From Halalkalicoccus sp. CGA53 (GTDB lineage Archaea > Halobacteriota > Halobacteria > Halobacteriales > Halalkalicoccaceae), in contig NZ_CP144125.1 in NCBI RefSeq assembly GCF_036429475.1, forward strand, positions 3,117,521 to 3,181,520: a stretch of DNA of 64,000 bases, in the 5' to 3' direction. The position numbers were made by a program, and so were the translations under genes. Positions 13,474-50,907 of the stretch are shown here, in pieces. How positions within the stretch are numbered: position 1 is the first letter of the stretch; every line of letters begins with the position of its first letter. The notes beneath the pieces were generated by a model that saw nothing but the letters and a program-made list of their open reading frames with translations, did not search any database and was not told where the DNA came from.

Positions 13474-14325
13474 CACTCGATCCTCCGATCGCGGTCGAAC
13501 GTCTCGGGGACGATCGGATAGTCACAGTTCGTCTACGTTCTGCGGTCCCCTTAGTTCGACCGAAACGGTTCCCGTACACGACGGCCGGATAGCGGGGAGT
13601 ACTGCCGTTACTAAACGACCAAGACCGGCACGCAAACTTCGCAAATCACCCCCTCGCTGACACCCTTAACAAGCATTCGGTTCGATCACGATCCAGTCGA
13701 CGCCGTTTTTTTGCCCCCGCGTACGCGAGGATCACGCACGCCGACGCCGGACCTTCCGCTATCAACACCCTCAATCTCGGTGCCGCGCTGCCGTGATTGC
13801 TCGCGCGCTTGTTCGAGCATGCGCCCGCACCTCGTCTACTCGAACTCCTCGTCGGCATCTGGGGGACCCGACGGTCATCACCCTGTAGCTTTCGATATTC
13901 GTCGTCTCCGCGACGTGGGAGGCGGTGATAGGGATCATCGTAACCAACAGGATCTCTCAGGCGCACGTATCACCACGCCGTTCGATCCGTGATGGTGGAA
14001 TTATATGCTTCTACGATGACCCCTATTAGTAACGTCTTGGTGGAATAACTACTGGTAGTAGTATCGATGGGAATTTGAGTAATGATTCTCGAGCTATCGA
14101 CGGCCTCGCTCGATCCGGCTTCCGAAGACACATGGTGTCGGTGGTGAGTGGTTCGCTTGGTGCCCGTTCCTTGCCGACGACCGCCGATCGAGAAGTCTAC
14201 TCAACGATAACAAAACCACCCACAGCGCCAGATTCCGACCGAATGGGTGCCGATCACATCGGGTGAAGGATGAGAGCCCGTGATACCGAGAACCCCTGAC
14301 ACCACCCACCGCCGACACCGTCTGT
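13474..14325. other. Long intergenic region holding repeat copy B
   Basis: About 850 bp with no convincing gene. It contains the promoter side of the APC-UspA gene, a T7 run at 13706-13712 that follows no same-strand gene, and repeat copy B (13928-14026). From about 14030 base composition becomes more AT-rich, marking entry into the accessory island. Confidence 0.5.
13928..14026 (+). mobile_element. 100-bp inverted-end repeat, copy B (MITE-like)
   Basis: A 99-bp copy in the same orientation as copy A. It begins ATAGGGATCATCGTA and ends CTACGATGACCCCTAT, with one mismatch in the right end relative to a perfect terminal inverted repeat. The core shares AGGATCTCTC and GGCGCACGTATCACC with the other copies. 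It marks the left edge of the 14.0-18.1 kb accessory island. Confidence 0.78.
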
Positions 14326-18060: not shown

Positions 18061-18086
18061 CATAGAGCATGGATGAGGCGCCTCTC

Positions 18087-18185
18087 ACAGGAATCGTCGT
18101 AATCAACCGGATCTCTCGGGCGCACCTATCACCACGTCGTTCGATTCGCGATCGAGGAACTACGAGCTACTACGACGATCCCTAC
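18087..18185 (+). mobile_element. 100-bp inverted-end repeat, copy C (MITE-like)
   Basis: A more diverged 99-bp copy, in the same orientation as A and B. It begins ACAGGAATCGTCGTA and ends TACGACGATCCCTAC. The core keeps CAACCGGATCTCTCGGGCGC and the TTCGATTCGCGATCGAGGAA block of copy A. It marks the right edge of the accessory island. Confidence 0.75.
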
Positions 18186-18321
18186 GAGTTCGTCATCCGG
18201 GTGTTCGGAGCGCACGAACGAGAGTGCCGCGTCGGCCAGCTTCGAGTCGTCTGCCGGGACGAGGACGGAGTGTACCGAACTGCAGCGACGACGGGTCGGA
18301 TACGGTAGCCACGGTCCGGGC

Positions 18322-21064: not shown

Positions 21065-21166
21065 CGTATCAGTAAACCGTACTTCCCGGTGAACCGGGGT
21101 AATCCCTTTGCCTGCAGATTCGGCTTCCGGGACCGGTGACTCGTCCCTCCCGAGTCGGGACGTCTC

Positions 21167-21252
21167 ACAGGGATCGTCGTAGCCAACCGTATCTCTCGGG
21201 CGTACAGGTCACCGATCTCTTCCGGTTCCCGGTCGATGTACGACGAGCCTCA
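21167..21252 (+). mobile_element. Inverted-end repeat, copy D (degenerate)
   Basis: A shortened, diverged copy of about 86 bp. The left end ACAGGGATCGTCGTAGCCAACCG is well kept and the core retains ATCTCTCGGGCG and GGTCACCG. The right end (GTACGACGAGCC) is degenerate. It lies just past the stop codon of the GYD-domain gene. Confidence 0.65.
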
Positions 21253-21265
21253 CCGACGGCCCCTC

Positions 21266-21550
21266 TCAGAAGTCGCCGACGAGGCCGGCGAACTCCTCGA
21301 CCGGGATGAGCTCGTTCGTCTCGGTCGTGAAACCGTAGCTGCCGATCGTGATGGCGGCCTGTGCCGCAGCGTCGCGGTCGGGCGCGTCGATGATGAGCAC
21401 GAAGTCCACGTCGCCGAGGACGGCGTAAGAGCGGACCACCTCCACCTCAAACTCCTCTAGCTTCTCGCGGAGGTCGCCCCAGAGCCCCGCGAGTTCCTGG
21501 GCGTTCTGGACGTGCTGATCGAGGTTCACCTGCACGAGGTACTCTGCCAT
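21266..21550 (-). CDS. GYD-domain protein
   Basis: A 94-residue soluble protein of the GYD family, a small ferredoxin-like-fold domain of unknown function common in bacteria and archaea. I start it at ATG 21550 (MAEYLVQVNLDQHVQ), where family homology begins; an upstream start at 21610 would add a low-complexity Ser/Gly stretch. The C-terminal part (FVLIIDAPDRDAAAQAAITI) has the typical strand-helix pattern. It is divergent from the TrkA-C-like pair. Confidence 0.8.
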   Translation of the reverse strand: MAEYLVQVNLDQHVQNAQELAGLWGDLREKLEEFEVEVVRSYAVLGDVDFVLIIDAPDRDAAAQAAITIGSYGFTTETNELIPVEEFAGLVGDF

Positions 21551-43745: not shown

Positions 43746-44756
43746 TCACGCTCCGCTCGAATCGTCCGAATATCGGTCTCGGCGGGGATCGGTGGAAGTG
43801 GCGTCGGATCGCTCCGAGTGGTGCGGGTCCCCGTATCGGACCATCTCGAGCATCATCCGCTCGAACCGGTCCCCATCGACCGATTCGACGACGCGGGTGC
43901 GGGCCACCCCGTCGGTCACCCCGAGCTCGTCGACGGCGCTGTAGCCCCGCGTTATCCCGTCTCGGTCGTCGACGTCGACGGAGTAGGTCCCGGCTCGCTC
44001 GACGATATCGGGTTCGAGCAGCGTCGCGAGCGTCATCGAGTCCGGCTGGGCGTCACGTCGGCTTCGAGCGAGTCGTGGGCCGACTGGCTGTTGAACTCCC
44101 TCACGGCACCCGTGATCGTGACGAAGAACTCCGAGAGTGGCGTGTCGATCGCCTCGATCTCGGCGAACGTGTCGGCGCCGAACAGCGAGTCCCGTACCGT
44201 CACCCCCCAGTCGACCAGCGTCACCTCGAACGCCTCCAGGACGATGCGGGCGGCGTCCGGATCGACCCAGAAGTTGTACTCGGCTGCGGGCGTGACGTTG
44301 CCGAGCGTGTTCACCGCCCATGACCCAGACGTCGTCGAGCAACTCTGGGAGGGCGGGTTCTAACTGGAGCGCGAGCGCGACGTTCGTCACCGGTGCGATG
44401 CACGTGAGCGTGATCTCGCCGGGGTTCTCACGGGCGGTCCGAACGATCGCGTCCACCGCCTGCTCCTCCGCCGACGGGGTGCCGGTGTCCGGAAAGAGGT
44501 CGCCACCGAGCCCACCCTCCCCGTGGACGTACTCGGCGTACTCGTACTCCTTGCACAGCGGCGAGCGCGCGCCCTCGTAGACGGGGACATCGTCGGCTCC
44601 CACGAGGCCGAGCGTGTACTTCGCGTTCTCGACCTGGTGTTCGAAGGGGACGTTCCCGGCACAGATCGTCACGCCCTCGAGGTCGACGCGATCGGAGAGC
44701 GCCGCGAGGAGGATCGCCTGTGTGTCGTCGCCCGCGGTGTCGGTGTCGAGTAGCAT
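43746..44756 (-). pseudogene. Nucleoside hydrolase with two compensating frameshifts
   Basis: An inosine/uridine-preferring nucleoside hydrolase, which splits ribonucleosides into base and ribose. The N-terminal metal site LLDTDTAGDDTQA is intact and the first part reads normally to VWVMGG (near 44315). The middle (about 44036-44314) makes sense only in another frame, where it gives NTLGNVTPAAEYNFWVDPDAA and the conserved AHD site. The last part (DSMTLATLLEPDIVERAG onward) returns to the first frame. The single continuous open frame thus has a scrambled centre and lacks the active-site His. ATG 44756 fits the family start; a GTG at 44780 is possible. Sequence error remains an alternative. Confidence 0.8.
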
Positions 44757-44858
44757 TCGACGAAGGGTCTCGGAGCTCACGGTCCGTCGATCGCACGCAG
44801 GGACGAAAAGGTTCGTCTCCGGGAGGGACGACGCCGGCTGCCGTCTCGTACGATCCCT

Positions 44859-45008
44859 TCAGTCGGGTTCGAGTTCCGACCAGAGCATGCAGTGATCCGA
44901 CGCACGGTGGGCCAGGTCGGTCAGCTCCGACTCGTCAACGGGGTGCGGCCAGAAGACGGCCGAGTCGACGATGTCGAAGTGTTCCGACGGGAGCACGTAG
45001 TCGGCCGC
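44859..45008 (-). pseudogene. C-terminal remnant of an endonuclease/exonuclease/phosphatase (EEP) family gene
   Basis: About 50 codons ending at TGA 44859 encode DYVLPSEHFDIVDSAVFWP and, further on, ASDHCMLWSEL. These match the C-terminal strand and the catalytic SDH motif of EEP-family nucleases/phosphatases. No upstream part of the domain is present; the frame soon loses similarity and meets a stop at repeat copy E. The gene is therefore a 3' remnant. Confidence 0.65.
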
Positions 45009-45073
45009 CGGCACCGCTCGCCGCCGCTCTTCACGCAACGCCGGTCGAGACGAACGCCGCTCCGCCGAGTCTC

Positions 45074-45173
45074 ACAGGGATCATCGTAGGAGTTCATAGT
45101 TCCTCGATTTCGAATCTAACGAGACCGATGAGACGTGTGCTTGAGAGATCCGGCCGGCTACGATGATCCCTAT
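45074..45173 (-). mobile_element. 100-bp inverted-end repeat, copy E (MITE-like)
   Basis: A full-length inverted copy. Read on the minus strand it starts ATAGGGATCATCGTAGCC and ends CTACGATGATCCCTGT, nearly perfect terminal inverted repeats of 15-16 bp. The internal blocks CGGATCTCTC, TTCGAAATCGAGGAA and TGAACTCCT match copy A. It lies between the truncated EEP gene and the interrupted DUF7282-like gene. Confidence 0.8.
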
Positions 45174-45301
45174 CAGTACCTGCCGTCGACCGGGTCCCCT
45201 CGAAGTGACGCGGTTCGAGTTCATCGGCCTCCTCCGTCCGCGAGGAACTCCTGTCGACCCACGGTGGCGTTGTCGAGGACGACGATGTCGTTCACCGTCA
45301 C

Positions 45302-45607
45302 TCAGTCGCCGTGACCGCCGTCCTCGTCGTGATGGAGGACGACGGTCACGGTCTGTGTCTCCGTGAGCGGTCGGTCGAGCGAGAGTGCTCCATCGAACGT
45401 CTCGTCCGCGGCGATCGGCTCGCTCGTCCCGACCACGTTCATGCCCGCCTCGTACGCGACGACCAGGAAGTCCTCGTCGGTGTACGTCGCCTCTTCGATA
45501 TCGAGGCTCCGGATCGCACCTCGATCGCCCTGTCGCTGGACGTGCACTGCGGCAGCTCCGTCGAACCCGTCGGCAGCTACGACCTGCGCCAGGGGTTCGC
45601 TCGTCAT
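45302..45607 (-). pseudogene. DUF7282-like secreted-domain protein, probably truncated
   Basis: A 101-residue frame from ATG 45607. The segment TYTDEDFLVVAYEAG, followed by GTSEPIAADETFDGALSLDRPL and TETQTVTVVLHHDEDG, matches the strand pattern of a haloarchaeal secreted domain usually numbered DUF7282. The usual signal peptide is missing. The same frame stays open past the TGA at 45302 for 22 more codons (VNDIVVLDNATVGRQEFL), which look like a domain continuation, so the stop may be a nonsense mutation. It sits in a decay zone beside a repeat copy. Confidence 0.5.
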
Positions 45608-45704: not shown

Positions 45705-46760
45705 CTACTCGTCGGAGTCGTAGTGTTCACCGGCGGCCGAGGGCATGCGGGTCCGACCGACGAACGTGAGGACGACGAGCACCGCCACGTAGGGGATGAT
45801 ACCGACCAGCGTCGCCGAGACGTCGAAGCCGGCGACCTGCTGTAGCTGCAGCTGTAACGCGTCGAGTCCGGCGAAGAGGAATGACGCGAGGAACGCGCCG
45901 ACGGGGTTGTAGTTGCCGATGAGGTAGGCAGTGAGCCCGATCCAGCCACGACCGTCGACCATCGTGTCGCCGCTGCCGACGAACTGCCCGGTGTTGAGTG
46001 CGAGCCCGGCGCCGCCGATCCCGCAGTAGACCCCCGAGAGAAGGACGCCCGCGTAGCGGACCTTGCGGACGTCGACCCCGGCCGTGTCGAGGCTCTTCGG
46101 GTCCTCGCCGCTTGCCTCGATCCACATGCCGAACGGTGTTCGATTGAGGAGATACCACGAGAAGGGCACCGCCAGGACGAGTAGAACTACCGGCGGGGTG
46201 GCCGAGAAGAGCGGCCCCACGCTCGGGAGCTCCGCGAGCACCGGGACCTCCCAGACCGGGAAGGTGCCGACGCTCGGGCTGTTGGTCCGGTCCCAGATGA
46301 TGATGCTCGCGAACGGCGCGAAGCCGAGCGCGATCAGCCAGACCGCGAGCCCGGCGATGATCTGGTCGGCTTTGAACTCGATGCAGACGACCGCGAACAG
46401 CAGGGCGACGGCCGTGCTCGCGAGCACCGCGAGTCCGAACGCGAGCCAGACGTTCGCGCCGATCGGCGTCGCCGCGAGTCCCCACGCGCTCGCGACCGCG
46501 GCGAACGCGCCGATGATCAGCAGTCCCTCGAGGCCGATGTTGATGACGCCGGATTTCTCGGCGAAGATACCACCCATCGCCGCGAACGCGATCGGGACGG
46601 TAAAGCGGAACGCGGCGGCCAGGTACGACGCGCTGATCACGCCCGTGACGTCCGCGAGTAGCGATCGCCCGCCGTCGACGACCAGCCCCAGCACCAGGAG
46701 CCCGAAGAGGATCGCTCCGATCGCGAGTCCCTGTCGTCGGGTGACCAGCGGCGTGCTCAC
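45705..46760 (-). CDS. Nucleoside ABC transporter permease (second)
   Basis: A 351-residue permease of the BPD_transp_2 family with about 9-10 helices. The motif GGIFAEKSGVINIGLEGLLI near residue 63 is the family's cytosolic coupling segment. It pairs with the preceding permease, as in NupQ/NupP-type nucleoside importers. It begins with GTG 46760, overlapping the previous stop by 4 bp. The C-terminal tail is short and acidic. It is the last gene of the operon. Confidence 0.92.
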   Translation of the reverse strand: MSTPLVTRRQGLAIGAILFGLLVLGLVVDGGRSLLADVTGVISASYLAAAFRFTVPIAFAAMGGIFAEKSGVINIGLEGLLIIGAFAAVASAWGLAATPIGANVWLAFGLAVLASTAVALLFAVVCIEFKADQIIAGLAVWLIALGFAPFASIIIWDRTNSPSVGTFPVWEVPVLAELPSVGPLFSATPPVVLLVLAVPFSWYLLNRTPFGMWIEASGEDPKSLDTAGVDVRKVRYAGVLLSGVYCGIGGAGLALNTGQFVGSGDTMVDGRGWIGLTAYLIGNYNPVGAFLASFLFAGLDALQLQLQQVAGFDVSATLVGIIPYVAVLVVLTFVGRTRMPSAAGEHYDSDE

Positions 46761-48046
46761 GACCCCTCACCACCGTTCGAGTTCCGGTCCGACGTGGATC
46801 GCTCAGCGTCGACCCCCTCACCGCCGTCCGTCGGCTCCGACGTGGATCCGCTCTCCCCCCTCGACTCGCCACCGTCGGTCGCGACGGGCTCGCCGCCGTA
46901 GCCCGCTCGTTTCCCGATCATGCGGAAGAACTCCGGCATCGCGATGAAGAGGATGATCAGTCCCCTGAGTACCTCGACGAGTTCGTTCGGGACGCCGAGC
47001 GAGAGGTCGATCGCGACGCTCCCGCTTTTCATCCCCCCGAACAACAGCGCCGCGGGGATCACGCCGATCGGGTTGTTCCCCGCGAGGATCGAGACCGCGA
47101 TGCCGTCGAAGCCGAGCGGGGGGATGCCGTCCTGCCAGCGGTACTGGACCATCGTGACGTAGATCGCGCCGGCGACGCCGCCGAGCGCGCCCGAGAGCGT
47201 CATGCTGGTGACGACGTTGCGCCTGGCGTTCACCCCGCCGTACTCCGCGGCGGCCTCCTGGATGCCGCTGGTGCGCAGCTCGTAGCCCAGGACGGTGCGG
47301 GTGTAGAGATAGTAGATCCCGACGGCGACCAGCAGGGCGCCGACCAGCGCGTAGATCGAAAAGCGCGAGCCGTCGATCGTCGCCGGTAGCCGGGCGACCT
47401 CCGGTATCGAGTGGGTCTGGACCGAGTCCGTCTCGAGGTTCCCGACGTGGTTTTGGACGAGCCAGAAGGCGATTCCCATCGCGATGAAGTTGAGCATGAT
47501 CGTCGTGATCACCTCGTGGGCGTTCGCGTACGCCTTCATCAGCCCCGGGATCATCCCCCAGACGCCGCCGACGAACGCACCGACGACGACCCCCGCGGGG
47601 ATCGCGAGCAGCGTCCCGAGCGCGTTCTCCGGGACGACTTCGCCGAGGAACAGAACGGTCAGCGCGGCCGCCAGTGCCCCCAGCACCATCTGGCCCTGCG
47701 TACCGATGTTGAACAGCCCCGCGCGGAAGGCGACCGCGACCGAGAGGCCGGTCAACAGCAACAGCGTCGTCTCCTGGAGCGTTCGACCGAGGGCCGTGAA
47801 CGAGCCGAACGCCCCAGCGACCATCGTCGAGTAGACCTCGATCGGGTTGTAACAGCCGTAGCCGAGGCCCGGGAGCAGGATGAACGGATCGGGACAGTCG
47901 GCGACGAAGCCCGAGAGAAAGACGAGAACGGCGCCGACGACGACGGCGAAGACCAGCGCCGTGAGGCTGATCGCGATCCGCTGGACGGCCGTGGCCTCGA
48001 CGAGCCGGTCGAGTGAGGCGTCCGCCCGGTCGCGCCAGTCGCTCAA
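46757..48046 (-). CDS. Nucleoside ABC transporter permease (first)
   Basis: A 429-residue permease with about 9 helices between residues 20 and 375 and an acidic disordered tail of 50 residues. The segment FRAGLFNIGTQGQMVLGAL is the coupling motif. No ATG lies at a sensible place: the ATG overlapping the upstream stop opens a different frame. I use TTG 48046 (SDWRDRADASLDRLVE); GTG/ATG alternatives further upstream would overlap the ATPase gene heavily. It works with the second permease as the membrane core. Confidence 0.88.
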   Translation of the reverse strand: MSDWRDRADASLDRLVEATAVQRIAISLTALVFAVVVGAVLVFLSGFVADCPDPFILLPGLGYGCYNPIEVYSTMVAGAFGSFTALGRTLQETTLLLLTGLSVAVAFRAGLFNIGTQGQMVLGALAAALTVLFLGEVVPENALGTLLAIPAGVVVGAFVGGVWGMIPGLMKAYANAHEVITTIMLNFIAMGIAFWLVQNHVGNLETDSVQTHSIPEVARLPATIDGSRFSIYALVGALLVAVGIYYLYTRTVLGYELRTSGIQEAAAEYGGVNARRNVVTSMTLSGALGGVAGAIYVTMVQYRWQDGIPPLGFDGIAVSILAGNNPIGVIPAALLFGGMKSGSVAIDLSLGVPNELVEVLRGLIILFIAMPEFFRMIGKRAGYGGEPVATDGGESRGESGSTSEPTDGGEGVDAERSTSDRNSNGGEGS

Positions 48047-48089
48047 CGTCTCACCCCCCGGTCGATCTGACGACGTCTTCCCCCGAGCG

Positions 48090-49748
48090 TCATCGTCTCC
48101 CTCCGCCCGGCTCCCCGACCACCTCACCCCGTTCGATCCGCGCCCCGTCCGGGTCGAGCCCGGTCGGGCGTTCGCCCGCCATGAGCAAGCCGAGTTCCTC
48201 CTCCGTGACGCTCTCCGGATCGACGACGGCGACCACCTCACCGTCGTGCATCACAGCGAGTCGATCGGAGAGGCGTCTCACCTCGTCGAGTTTCGAGGAG
48301 ACGAGCAACACGGCCTTTCCGTCGGACCTGAGCCCGAGCAGGCGGTCGTGGATGAACTCGATCGAGCCGATGTCGACGCCGCGGGTCGGCTGGGCGGCGA
48401 CGACGAGCGAGGGGTCGCGTTCGAACTCGCGACCGACGATGAACTTCTGCTGGTTGCCGCCCGACAGCGAGCGGGCGGTCGCGGCCGCGTCGGGCGGCCG
48501 GACGTCGTACTCCTCGATAACCTCCCCCACGTACGCGTCGGTTTGCCCCCAGTCGATCCGCCAGCCGTCGGAGAACGTCGGGAGCCGCTGACAGCCCAGC
48601 AGCCCGTTGCGCCGGAGGTCGTACTCCATCACGAGGCTCCGTTTCTGTCTGTCCTCGGCGATGTAGGCCATACCGGCTTCGATCCGCCGCCGTCGGGGCG
48701 CGTCCGTCAGATCGCGACCCTCGAACGTGATCGTCCCCGACTCGACGGGTCGGAGCCCGGTGATCGCCTCGACGAGTTCGGTCTGCCCGTTGCCGTCGAC
48801 GCCGGCGATTCCGAAGATCTCCCCGGTGTGGACCGCGAACCCGACGCCGCCGATGGCCGTCACCCCGCGGTCGTCATCGACGACGAGGTCGTCGATCTCG
48901 AGGAGCGAGGAGCCGCGCTCGGACGGCGGCTTCTCGATCTCGAGGATGACGTCGCGACCGACCATCATGCTCGCGAGCTGCTCCTGGGTCGCCTCCGCTG
49001 CGGGGACCGTCCCGACGAGCGTCCCGTCCCGAAGGACGCTGATCTCGTCGGCAGCGCGCAGCGCCTCGCCGAGCTTGTGAGTGATGAACACGATCGTCTT
49101 CCCCTCGGCGATCAGCTCGGAGAGGACGGAGAACAGCGCCTCGACCTCCTGCGGGGTGAGCACCGCCGTCGGCTCGTCGAGGATCAGGACGTCCGCACCG
49201 CGGTAGAGCGTCTTCAGGATCTCGACGCGCTGTTGCTCGCCGACGCTGATCTCCTCGATGCGCTCGGTCGGGTCGACGTCGAAGCCGTACCGTTCCGCGA
49301 GCGCCCGCGTCTCCTCGACCGCACGCTCGGTGTCGGTGGCGAGCCCGCCCCACTTCTTCGGCTCGTCCCCGAGAACGACGTTCTCGGCGACGGTCATCGT
49401 ATCGACCAGCATGAAGTGCTGGTGGATCATGCCGATCCCGGCGTCCATCGCGTCGCCGGGATCGTCGAACGCCCGCCGTTCGCCGTCGATCCAGATCGCC
49501 CCCTCGGTCGGCTCGTAGAGGCCGTAGAGGACGTTCATCAGGGTGGTCTTCCCGGCGCCGTTCTCGCCGACGAGGGCGTGGATCGTGCCGCGGTCGACGG
49601 TGAAGTCGACGTCGTCGTTGGCCACGACGCCCGGGAACCGCTTCGTGATGCCATCGAGGTGGACCGCCGGCACCTCATCGCCCACCCACGGGGTCGCCTC
49701 CGCTCGCTCTCCTCGTCCCGGCCCCTCTGCATCGGCGTTCGTTCCCAT
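48090..49748 (-). CDS. Nucleoside ABC transporter ATPase (two NBDs)
   Basis: A 552-residue double ATP-binding protein. NBD1 has Walker A GENGAGKTTLM near residue 60 and Walker B VLILDEPTAVL near 187. NBD2 has the divergent P-loop GVDGNGQTEL near 317 and the signature LSGGNQQKFI near 433, a pattern typical of sugar and nucleoside importers (RbsA/NupO-like), where the second site lacks a full Walker A. It lies 7 bp after the BMP lipoprotein gene. Confidence 0.95.
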   Translation of the reverse strand: MGTNADAEGPGRGERAEATPWVGDEVPAVHLDGITKRFPGVVANDDVDFTVDRGTIHALVGENGAGKTTLMNVLYGLYEPTEGAIWIDGERRAFDDPGDAMDAGIGMIHQHFMLVDTMTVAENVVLGDEPKKWGGLATDTERAVEETRALAERYGFDVDPTERIEEISVGEQQRVEILKTLYRGADVLILDEPTAVLTPQEVEALFSVLSELIAEGKTIVFITHKLGEALRAADEISVLRDGTLVGTVPAAEATQEQLASMMVGRDVILEIEKPPSERGSSLLEIDDLVVDDDRGVTAIGGVGFAVHTGEIFGIAGVDGNGQTELVEAITGLRPVESGTITFEGRDLTDAPRRRRIEAGMAYIAEDRQKRSLVMEYDLRRNGLLGCQRLPTFSDGWRIDWGQTDAYVGEVIEEYDVRPPDAAATARSLSGGNQQKFIVGREFERDPSLVVAAQPTRGVDIGSIEFIHDRLLGLRSDGKAVLLVSSKLDEVRRLSDRLAVMHDGEVVAVVDPESVTEEELGLLMAGERPTGLDPDGARIERGEVVGEPGGGRR

Positions 49749-49755
49749 CGCCGTC

Positions 49756-50907
49756 TCAGAGGTCGTCGAGGGTGTTCGGGACCTCGATCTCGCCGTCGAT
49801 GATCGCCTGCCGGGACTCCTCCAGGGCGTCGACGATCTCCTCGGGAAGCTCGCCCTCGAAGTCCTGGCCGACGATCGCTCCGACGCCCTCCTCCTCGAGG
49901 CCGAGGTCGTTTACCTGCCCGCCCTCGAACGTGTCCTCGACGATCGCTTCGATCGACTCGTAGACCGCGCTGTCGACGCGCTTGATCATGCTGGCGACGA
50001 TCACGTCGCTGAACTCCTCGGCGCTCACGGACTGGTCGTCGTCGACGCCGATGGCGAACCGTCCGGCCGACTGGGCGGCCTCGAAGACGCCGCCGCCGGT
50101 GCCGCCGGCGGCGTGGTAGACGACGTCCGCGCCGTCGTCGTACATGCTGCTCGCGATCTCCTGGCCCGTCGTCGGGTCGTTCCAGCTGCCGGCGTACGCA
50201 GAGGGCGTCTCGATCCCGTCGTCGGCGTGTCGCGCGCCGGCGACGTAGCCGGCCTCGAAGCGCTCGATCAACGAGGTCTCCTCGCCGCCGACGAAGCCGA
50301 CGGTCGCCTCCTCGGGGTCGGTCTCCCCGCCGCCGTGGGCGTACTCCGTCCCCGTGAGCAGCCCCGCGAGGTGGCCGACCTGGAACGAACCCTCGTGTTC
50401 GCGGAAGACGTAGCTCGCGACGTTCTCTGCCTCGACGACCGCGTCGACGAGGACGAAACGCGTGTCGGCGAACTCCTCGGCGTTGTCGACGAGGTCCGCC
50501 TCGTGGTCGAAGCCGATACAGACGACGACGTCGATCTCGTCGTCGCTGGCGAACTGGCGCTGCATGTCGTTCATGTCCGCCGGGGCGTCGGGTTCGGCGT
50601 TCTGGTACTCGATCCCGAACTCCTCCTGGGCCTGCTGGATACCGGCGTACGCCATGTCGTTGAACGACTCGTCGCCGAGGCCACCGGTGGAGTAGATTAT
50701 CCCCACGGTGACGTCGGACGCCGGTTCGTCCTCGGCGTCGTCGGTCGTCCCCTCGTCGGTCGCCTCGTCGTCGGTATCGTCGACGTCCGCGGCATCGTCG
50801 TCGGTGTCGTCCGCGGGATCGACGTCGTCGTCATCGTCGACCAGACAGCCCGCGGTCGCGATAGTCGTCCCCGCGCCCACCGTCGTGAGAAACGCTCTGC
50901 GGCGCAT
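49756..50907 (-). CDS. BMP/PnrA-family nucleoside-binding lipoprotein
   Basis: A 383-residue substrate-binding protein for purine or pyrimidine nucleosides. The N-terminus MRRRAFLTTVGAGTTIATAGC is a twin-arginine lipoprotein signal with lipobox Cys near residue 21. An acidic linker of about 40 residues follows. The BMP domain shows GIIYSTGGLGDESFNDMAY near residue 69, the motif that contacts the nucleoside. It starts the four-gene importer operon and has a TATA-like TATAG at 50932-50939. Confidence 0.93.
   Translation of the reverse strand: MRRRAFLTTVGAGTTIATAGCLVDDDDDVDPADDTDDDAADVDDTDDEATDEGTTDDAEDEPASDVTVGIIYSTGGLGDESFNDMAYAGIQQAQEEFGIEYQNAEPDAPADMNDMQRQFASDDEIDVVVCIGFDHEADLVDNAEEFADTRFVLVDAVVEAENVASYVFREHEGSFQVGHLAGLLTGTEYAHGGGETDPEEATVGFVGGEETSLIERFEAGYVAGARHADDGIETPSAYAGSWNDPTTGQEIASSMYDDGADVVYHAAGGTGGGVFEAAQSAGRFAIGVDDDQSVSAEEFSDVIVASMIKRVDSAVYESIEAIVEDTFEGGQVNDLGLEEEGVGAIVGQDFEGELPEEIVDALEESRQAIIDGEIEVPNTLDDL

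Follow-up and report, generated by a model that had tools for sequence, protein, structure and literature searches.

Organization of the nucleoside hydrolase locus

The DNA analysed here (hereafter the window) is a 64-kb stretch of a 4.04-Mb genome assembled in two contigs (G000:C2:3117521-3181520), and the relatives used for comparison are haloarchaea. On its minus strand, positions 43746-44780 form one uninterrupted open reading frame (ORF) of 344 amino acids, related to the inosine-uridine-preferring nucleoside hydrolases (NH, PF01156), for which the nearest solved structures by sequence are IunH-2 (3t8i), IunH-1 (3t8j) and RihA (3g5i). The same strand carries an importer operon, consisting of a PnrA/Bmp-type substrate-binding protein (49756-50907, PF02608), an ATPase with two ABC domains (48090-49748, PF00005), permease 1 (46757-48241, PF02653, intact with an uncertain start) and permease 2 (45705-46760, PF02653, intact, with 351/351 residues aligned at 95% in the relative G001). 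That this operon is intact, as the initial annotation had proposed, agrees both with single-frame segments in a codon-usage hidden Markov model (HMM), trained on the window plus 400 kb of the same genome without homologues, and with Pfam matches that are nearly full-profile for both permeases and the binding protein and fall into two ABC stretches in the ATPase.

In three relatives (G003, G005 and G008), the NH start lies 62-143 nt behind the stop codon of the second permease, as computed with the start codon nearest the DTDTA motif. The corresponding gap in the window is 924 nt and holds a DUF7282 gene (45302-45607, minus strand, PF23951), one copy of a dispersed inverted-repeat element of about 110 bp (45069-45178, minus strand), separate from the NH lesion, and the tail of another gene, so that, unlike in these three relatives, the window NH appears uncoupled from the importer. 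The tail (44862-44999, minus strand) encodes 46 residues of EEP type (endonuclease/exonuclease/phosphatase) without start and body; of 20 relatives searched, G009 gives the best match, a PF03372 protein of 402 aa.

Two deletions that cancel in frame

The NH was split into three separately translated pieces (N, M and C, all on the minus strand), which were compared by tblastn with 119 loci. The N piece (44316-44780, starting from GTG at 44780 or ATG at 44756) has its own frame, ends in DDVWVMG and matches PF01156 profile positions 2-147; the M piece (44053-44314) runs in the ancestral frame from VNTLGNVTPAAEYNFWVDPDAA to DVT without any stop and matches positions 152-238; and the C piece (43746-44045), where the frame is restored, begins with PDSMTLATLLEPD and matches positions 237-296, with 28.8 bits against a cut-off of 34.2 when taken alone. 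The profile is thus covered end to end by pieces in separate frames, and DTDTAGDD, APxTN, MGG and PDSMT are all found in the window DNA, as in other hydrolases of this family. Unlike in these hydrolases, the frame is broken twice, and the read-through ORF replaces the central motif by unrelated residues: two stretches of the continuous 344-aa ORF pass against PF01156, the best of which covers residues 10-159 only.

At the first junction (lesion 1, 44314-44316), the end of the N piece (VMG, 44316) and the start of the M piece (VNT, 44314) are 1 nt apart, whereas every homologue that yielded the complete set of pieces has 6 nt; the window therefore lacks 5 nt after VMG. At the second (lesion 2, 44046-44053), the window has an M-to-C distance of 5 nt, against 6 nt in 11/11 close orthologues, so 1 nt is missing before QPDSM; this distance differs again in more distant NH homologues. 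Both gaps are visible in a DNA alignment of the window NH with the 11 close orthologues (6 nt net), the frame is disrupted relative to each of them, and the HMM, which uses no homologues, switches frame at 44315/44316 and 44052/44053. Tblastn spacing, DNA alignment and HMM therefore agree with the frame changes that the initial annotation had placed near 44314 and 44040, and the comparison with orthologues that it had suggested returns both length differences in all 11. Its view that a net shift of zero is hidden in a long ORF is equally confirmed, the two losses (5 and 1 nt) having a sum divisible by 3, and its second indel of "1 or 2 bp" can be narrowed to a 1-nt deletion, the 2-bp option being at odds with the spacing in all 11 orthologues.

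Lesion 1 had been ascribed to the loss of one GGGCG unit from a tandem pair. A slippage-type loss of 5 bp fits the data, but the tandem GGGCG GGGCG itself is present at this site in only two of the 11 orthologues (G008 and G005), while a repeat of at least 4 nt recurring 5 nt apart occurs in 7/11. Slippage is likely at this lesion, if an ancestral tandem of the window's own lineage is extrapolated from its orthologues.

Could the ribosome repair what the DNA has lost? The ancestral frame is open in the middle and on both sides of it, as two programmed ribosomal frameshifts jointly restoring the ancestral NH protein would require. This would nevertheless demand two recoding events of opposite effect in a gene whose frame is continuous in 11/11 close orthologues, which makes it extremely improbable.

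The shifted middle and the predicted product

The consequences for the product can be read from the family motifs. The DTDxxxDD signature, which we take to be the N-terminal metal-binding aspartate motif, is present as DTDTAGDD in the correct frame, and the C-terminal HD/PD aspartate, presumably metal-binding in this family, is found as QPDSMTLATLLEPD in the restored frame. The stretch orthologous to QPDSMTLATLLEPD aligns with hDpctiawll of RihA, and PDSMTLATLLEPD, at the start of the C piece, corresponds to the metal-site aspartate of the family in alignment to RihA and IunH. When an intact orthologue was aligned by phmmer with PDB sequences (the four best of 27), its QPDSM matched PD in both IunH chains and HD in the two RihA/YbeK entries. 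By contrast, TPAAEYNFWVDPDAA, whose E and N are assumed to bind ribose in the known enzymes, lies in the shifted part and is absent from the 344-aa product, in the translation of which no central E/N..W..DP motif is found. The shifted middle had been described as holding both the conserved asparagine/aspartate motif and an AHD site. This holds for the former (TPAAEYNFWVDPDAA), but AHD is not supported as a catalytic or metal site, since the HD/PD of the family falls on QPDSM in the restored frame, and since the H of AHD is conserved in only 6/11 orthologues (the D in 11/11).

Read in the shifted phase, the middle encodes 89 residues with a pI of 12.0 (30 K/R/H vs 8 D/E), as compared with 88 residues and a pI of 4.05 (4 K/R/H vs 16 D/E) in the ancestral phase, which contains no stop in the window DNA. 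Counted from the MLLD position, the product has 336 residues vs 317-323 in the 11 orthologues, and the C piece extends beyond the ends of all of them; loss of the native stop may represent a third change, or the C-terminal end may merely be variable. In AlphaFold predictions from a shallow alignment (13 rows), the 344-aa product reached a mean pLDDT of 43.6, with about 22 for residues 161-240, and the intact orthologue, itself poor with the same 13 rows, a mean of 52.1 and about 47 for these residues. The direction of the difference fits a damaged middle, and carries little weight with both models poor.

Compensatory frameshift pairs have been sought in animal protein-coding genes, and part of that study describes such pairs in vertebrates and insects (PMC8935012). 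The window pair resembles these, as far as they are described there, in that neither indel is divisible by 3 while their sum is, and in that the shifted segment is unlike the ancestral one. A second deletion favoured by selection, for the rescue of a protein whose middle is new, would also agree with a net frame of zero and with a frame restored just ahead of the conserved QPDSM site. However, the shift places a strongly basic segment within an acidic protein, the central conserved motif is removed, and the low pLDDT of residues 161-240 points the same way, weakly given the equally poor intact control. Moreover, the shifted phase of the middle is stop-free in 9/11 intact orthologues, an open phase is thus to be expected, and the apparent compensation needs no selection. 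As judged from these sequences, the long ORF reflects composition rather than selection, and a selected pair is very unlikely. In contrast to the animal pairs of PMC8935012, as known from part of that study, the two cancelling deletions are most simply explained, if the assembly is correct, as chance in a dying gene and hence as ordinary gene decay. It is likewise highly improbable that the deletions created a 344-aa chimera that is kept and expressed, with a basic middle of 89 residues and an extended C-terminus on an acidic scaffold for nucleoside binding, and with a non-hydrolytic role, for example in binding or regulation beside the importer.

Age of the damage and probable redundancy of the gene

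Several comparisons bear on the time at which the frame was lost. Identity to the 11 close orthologues is 77-86% (amino acids) for the N piece and 76-84% for the M piece, and because the middle keeps in its ancestral frame the same identity as its flanks, the lesions appear to be recent. The differences from G008 fall on codon position 3 in 49/77 cases for N, 31/46 for M and 25/40 for C, a pattern alike inside and outside the shifted part, so that the ancestral-frame middle was under purifying selection during most of the time since the two diverged. Columns without variation among the 11 other sequences show 15 departures in the window (9 in N, 2 in M, 4 in C), and 13 of these are at codon positions 1-2. 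Departures of the same type number 18 both in G052 (12 at positions 1-2) and in HsA56 (11 at positions 1-2), and as the window shows no excess over these two rows, these columns do not demonstrate relaxed selection after the lesions. A second sequence with the deletion pair was not found among the loci compared, which included the best 80 of 184 from one of the underlying searches.

An intact NH paralogue lies elsewhere in the same genome (G000:C2:2953474-2954352), directly behind an MFS transporter gene; it matches PF01156 positions 2-296 without stops, and shares 68% identity with the window's N piece and 55% with its M piece. The two other genomes of the genus, one 61% and one 70% complete, gave NH matches of this paralogue's type only, at 84% identity to it in G001 and 81% in G002. 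Across the order, PF01156 is patchy, occurring in 23/59 genomes (own included) and in 16/41 nearly complete ones. The window NH would thus be dispensable through its intact paralogue. In the literature, the term "nucleoside hydrolase" did not occur together with haloarchaea among the top-ranked papers; a phosphorylase route is described for halophilic archaea in part of PMC9700705, the main text of which does not contain the term.

Gene decay or consensus error?

The main rival is that the two indels arose as consensus errors during assembly, the NH being intact in the organism. This would account for an ancestral frame that is kept and conserved on either side of each lesion, and GC-rich direct repeats are difficult for some sequencing platforms. 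How frequent, then, are frameshifts in this assembly? A sample of 400 kb (20 stretches of the same contig) was passed through an HMM filter and then read by eye, with 6 places flagged and 3 judged genuine frameshifts, a number that can be counted in favour of consensus error. However, the density is low and similar to that of three relatives (G052, G008 and G003), where 2 places were flagged in 380 kb and both found genuine by eye (19/20 stretches, L159 of G005 being left out, with models from each relative's own 100-140 kb), all these counts being lower bounds as the filter mainly catches shifts that stay open. In the 64-kb window, the NH is the only place flagged, and an uncorrected long-read assembly would carry far more frameshifts. 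Errors do not pervade the assembly. At such a density, a single gene is unlikely to have received two of them within 265 nt, and a 5-nt loss matching one repeat step is unlike the usual single-base error. Consensus error is thus unlikely, though it deserves to be taken seriously.

The three other frameshifted genes, named by eye from their translations, encode an M48-type peptidase (L122:19126), a pRiA4b-like protein (L127:2504) and a protein of sodium/solute symporter type (L137:9180). The other flagged places (L128:16130, L132:7253 and L132:11158) were rejected as natural adjacent genes or gene ends.

Overall, the window NH, which lies behind a nucleoside-importer operon of PnrA/Bmp type, is probably a recently formed pseudogene of a redundant PF01156 hydrolase. 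The presence of a pair of lesions in a single gene fits relaxed selection, as only 3 genuine frameshifts were seen in the 400 kb sampled elsewhere. Under this preferred reading, direct repeats of the GGGCG type within the MGGAV codons would have allowed strand slippage, with a loss of 5 bp that broke the frame, and a 1-bp deletion about 265 nt downstream would then have happened to restore it, this order of events being itself inferred. The long ORF would persist because the shifted phase of this GC-rich gene usually lacks stops. Of the conserved elements, the metal-binding loop at the N-terminus and the PD site at the C-terminus would remain in the product, but not the central strand NFWVDPDAA; because of this loss, the 344-aa product should be inactive as a nucleoside hydrolase.

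A dispersed element associated with stop codons

The repeat between the importer and the NH (45069-45178, minus strand) belongs to a dispersed family, with further window copies at 1356-1465, 13923-14031, 18082-18190 and 21162-21271 (all on the plus strand). It is delimited by TAGGGATCATCGTAG and CTACGATGATCCCTA; its inverted ends measure 15 bp and are flanked by what looks like a 3-bp target duplication, T(G/C)A. With a covariance model based on 28 copies (three genomes of the genus), the element was found in 7/31 genomes, all of the same haloarchaeal family: at least 92 copies in the own genome, at least 120 in G001, 38 in G002, 37 in G004, 50 in G009, 3 in G007 and 2 in G005, where up to 124 candidates were scored per genome and the high counts are lower bounds. 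None of the scored candidates from G003, G006, G008 and 21 genomes of other families was a copy, and the 64-kb window has no Rfam match at the gathering score.

Among 54 own copies, the best-scoring of the 92 or more, the flanking triplets are identical in 32 (TGA/TGA or TCA/TCA in 30) and reverse complements in 1, and such identity is what a 3-bp target duplication leaves behind. In 32/54 copies, one of the two flanking triplets coincides exactly with the TGA stop that the HMM assigns to the neighbouring gene (16 per side, with no copy in both sets), compared with 288 such stops among 1858 intergenic T(G/C)A triplets (15.5%) in 464 kb (binomial p 2.7e-13; the null is crude and takes no account of a preference for gene ends). 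For unequal pairs of the type TGA/CGA or TCG/TCA, TGA is retained on the stop side in 10/11. In G001, 20 of 120 copies, chosen by hand among the top-ranking ones because flanks were available, include 17 with identical triplets and 10 on a stop codon. Overlap with coding sequence does not exceed 7 nt in the 22 copies tested for context. The copy next to the NH is flanked by TGA at either end, yet does not sit on a stop codon.

On these grounds, the family looks like a non-autonomous element with inverted repeats, whose insertion at TGA restores that triplet, in which case the gene end would be left undamaged. A clean empty site was not found: in five comparisons of G001 with the own genome, four were not clean and the fifth (L277/L253) is filled in both, while one site in G002 holds about 80 nt of a different spacer sequence. 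A scan for single ends (at most 1 mismatch) yielded 46 ends and, by eye, no facing pair 0.2-3 kb apart that could bound an insertion sequence, nor any transposase partner. The nearest described kind is that of the short mobile repeats of Haloquadratum, with about 110 bp, inverted ends and no target duplication according to part of PMC3119063, from which the present element differs by its apparent duplication. Among the top-listed papers on inverted-repeat elements with haloarchaea or stop codons, titles and opening lines of abstracts gave nothing fitting beyond that work.

Two copies bracket a TauE/SafE-type gene (G000:C2:386918-387957 and G000:C1:24357-25396; L298 and L297). This unit of 1040 bp is 98.4% identical on both contigs, in opposite orientation, its left boundary lying exactly at the element end and its right boundary on C1 inside the second element, which makes composite mobilisation of a cargo gene possible. 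Another dispersed repeat of about 60-100 bp, apparently unrelated, was seen at L187:2003-2097 (query positions about 1004-1101), with at least 6 further places in G000, at least 2 in G001 and at least 3 in G002 (up to 40 candidates scored per genome). An element family sitting preferentially on stop codons has more potential than the NH finding itself.

A long open frame is not an enzyme

An ordinary frameshift pseudogene beside an intact paralogue is a known kind in prokaryotes, and the window NH resembles it by its short slippage-type deletions, its intact paralogue elsewhere and its intact operon neighbour. Unlike in the ordinary case, the second lesion restores the frame and gives one 344-aa ORF. 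The window NH may therefore serve as a cautionary example that two small deletions can cancel in a GC-rich genome and leave one long ORF, the presence of which must not be taken as nucleoside hydrolase activity.
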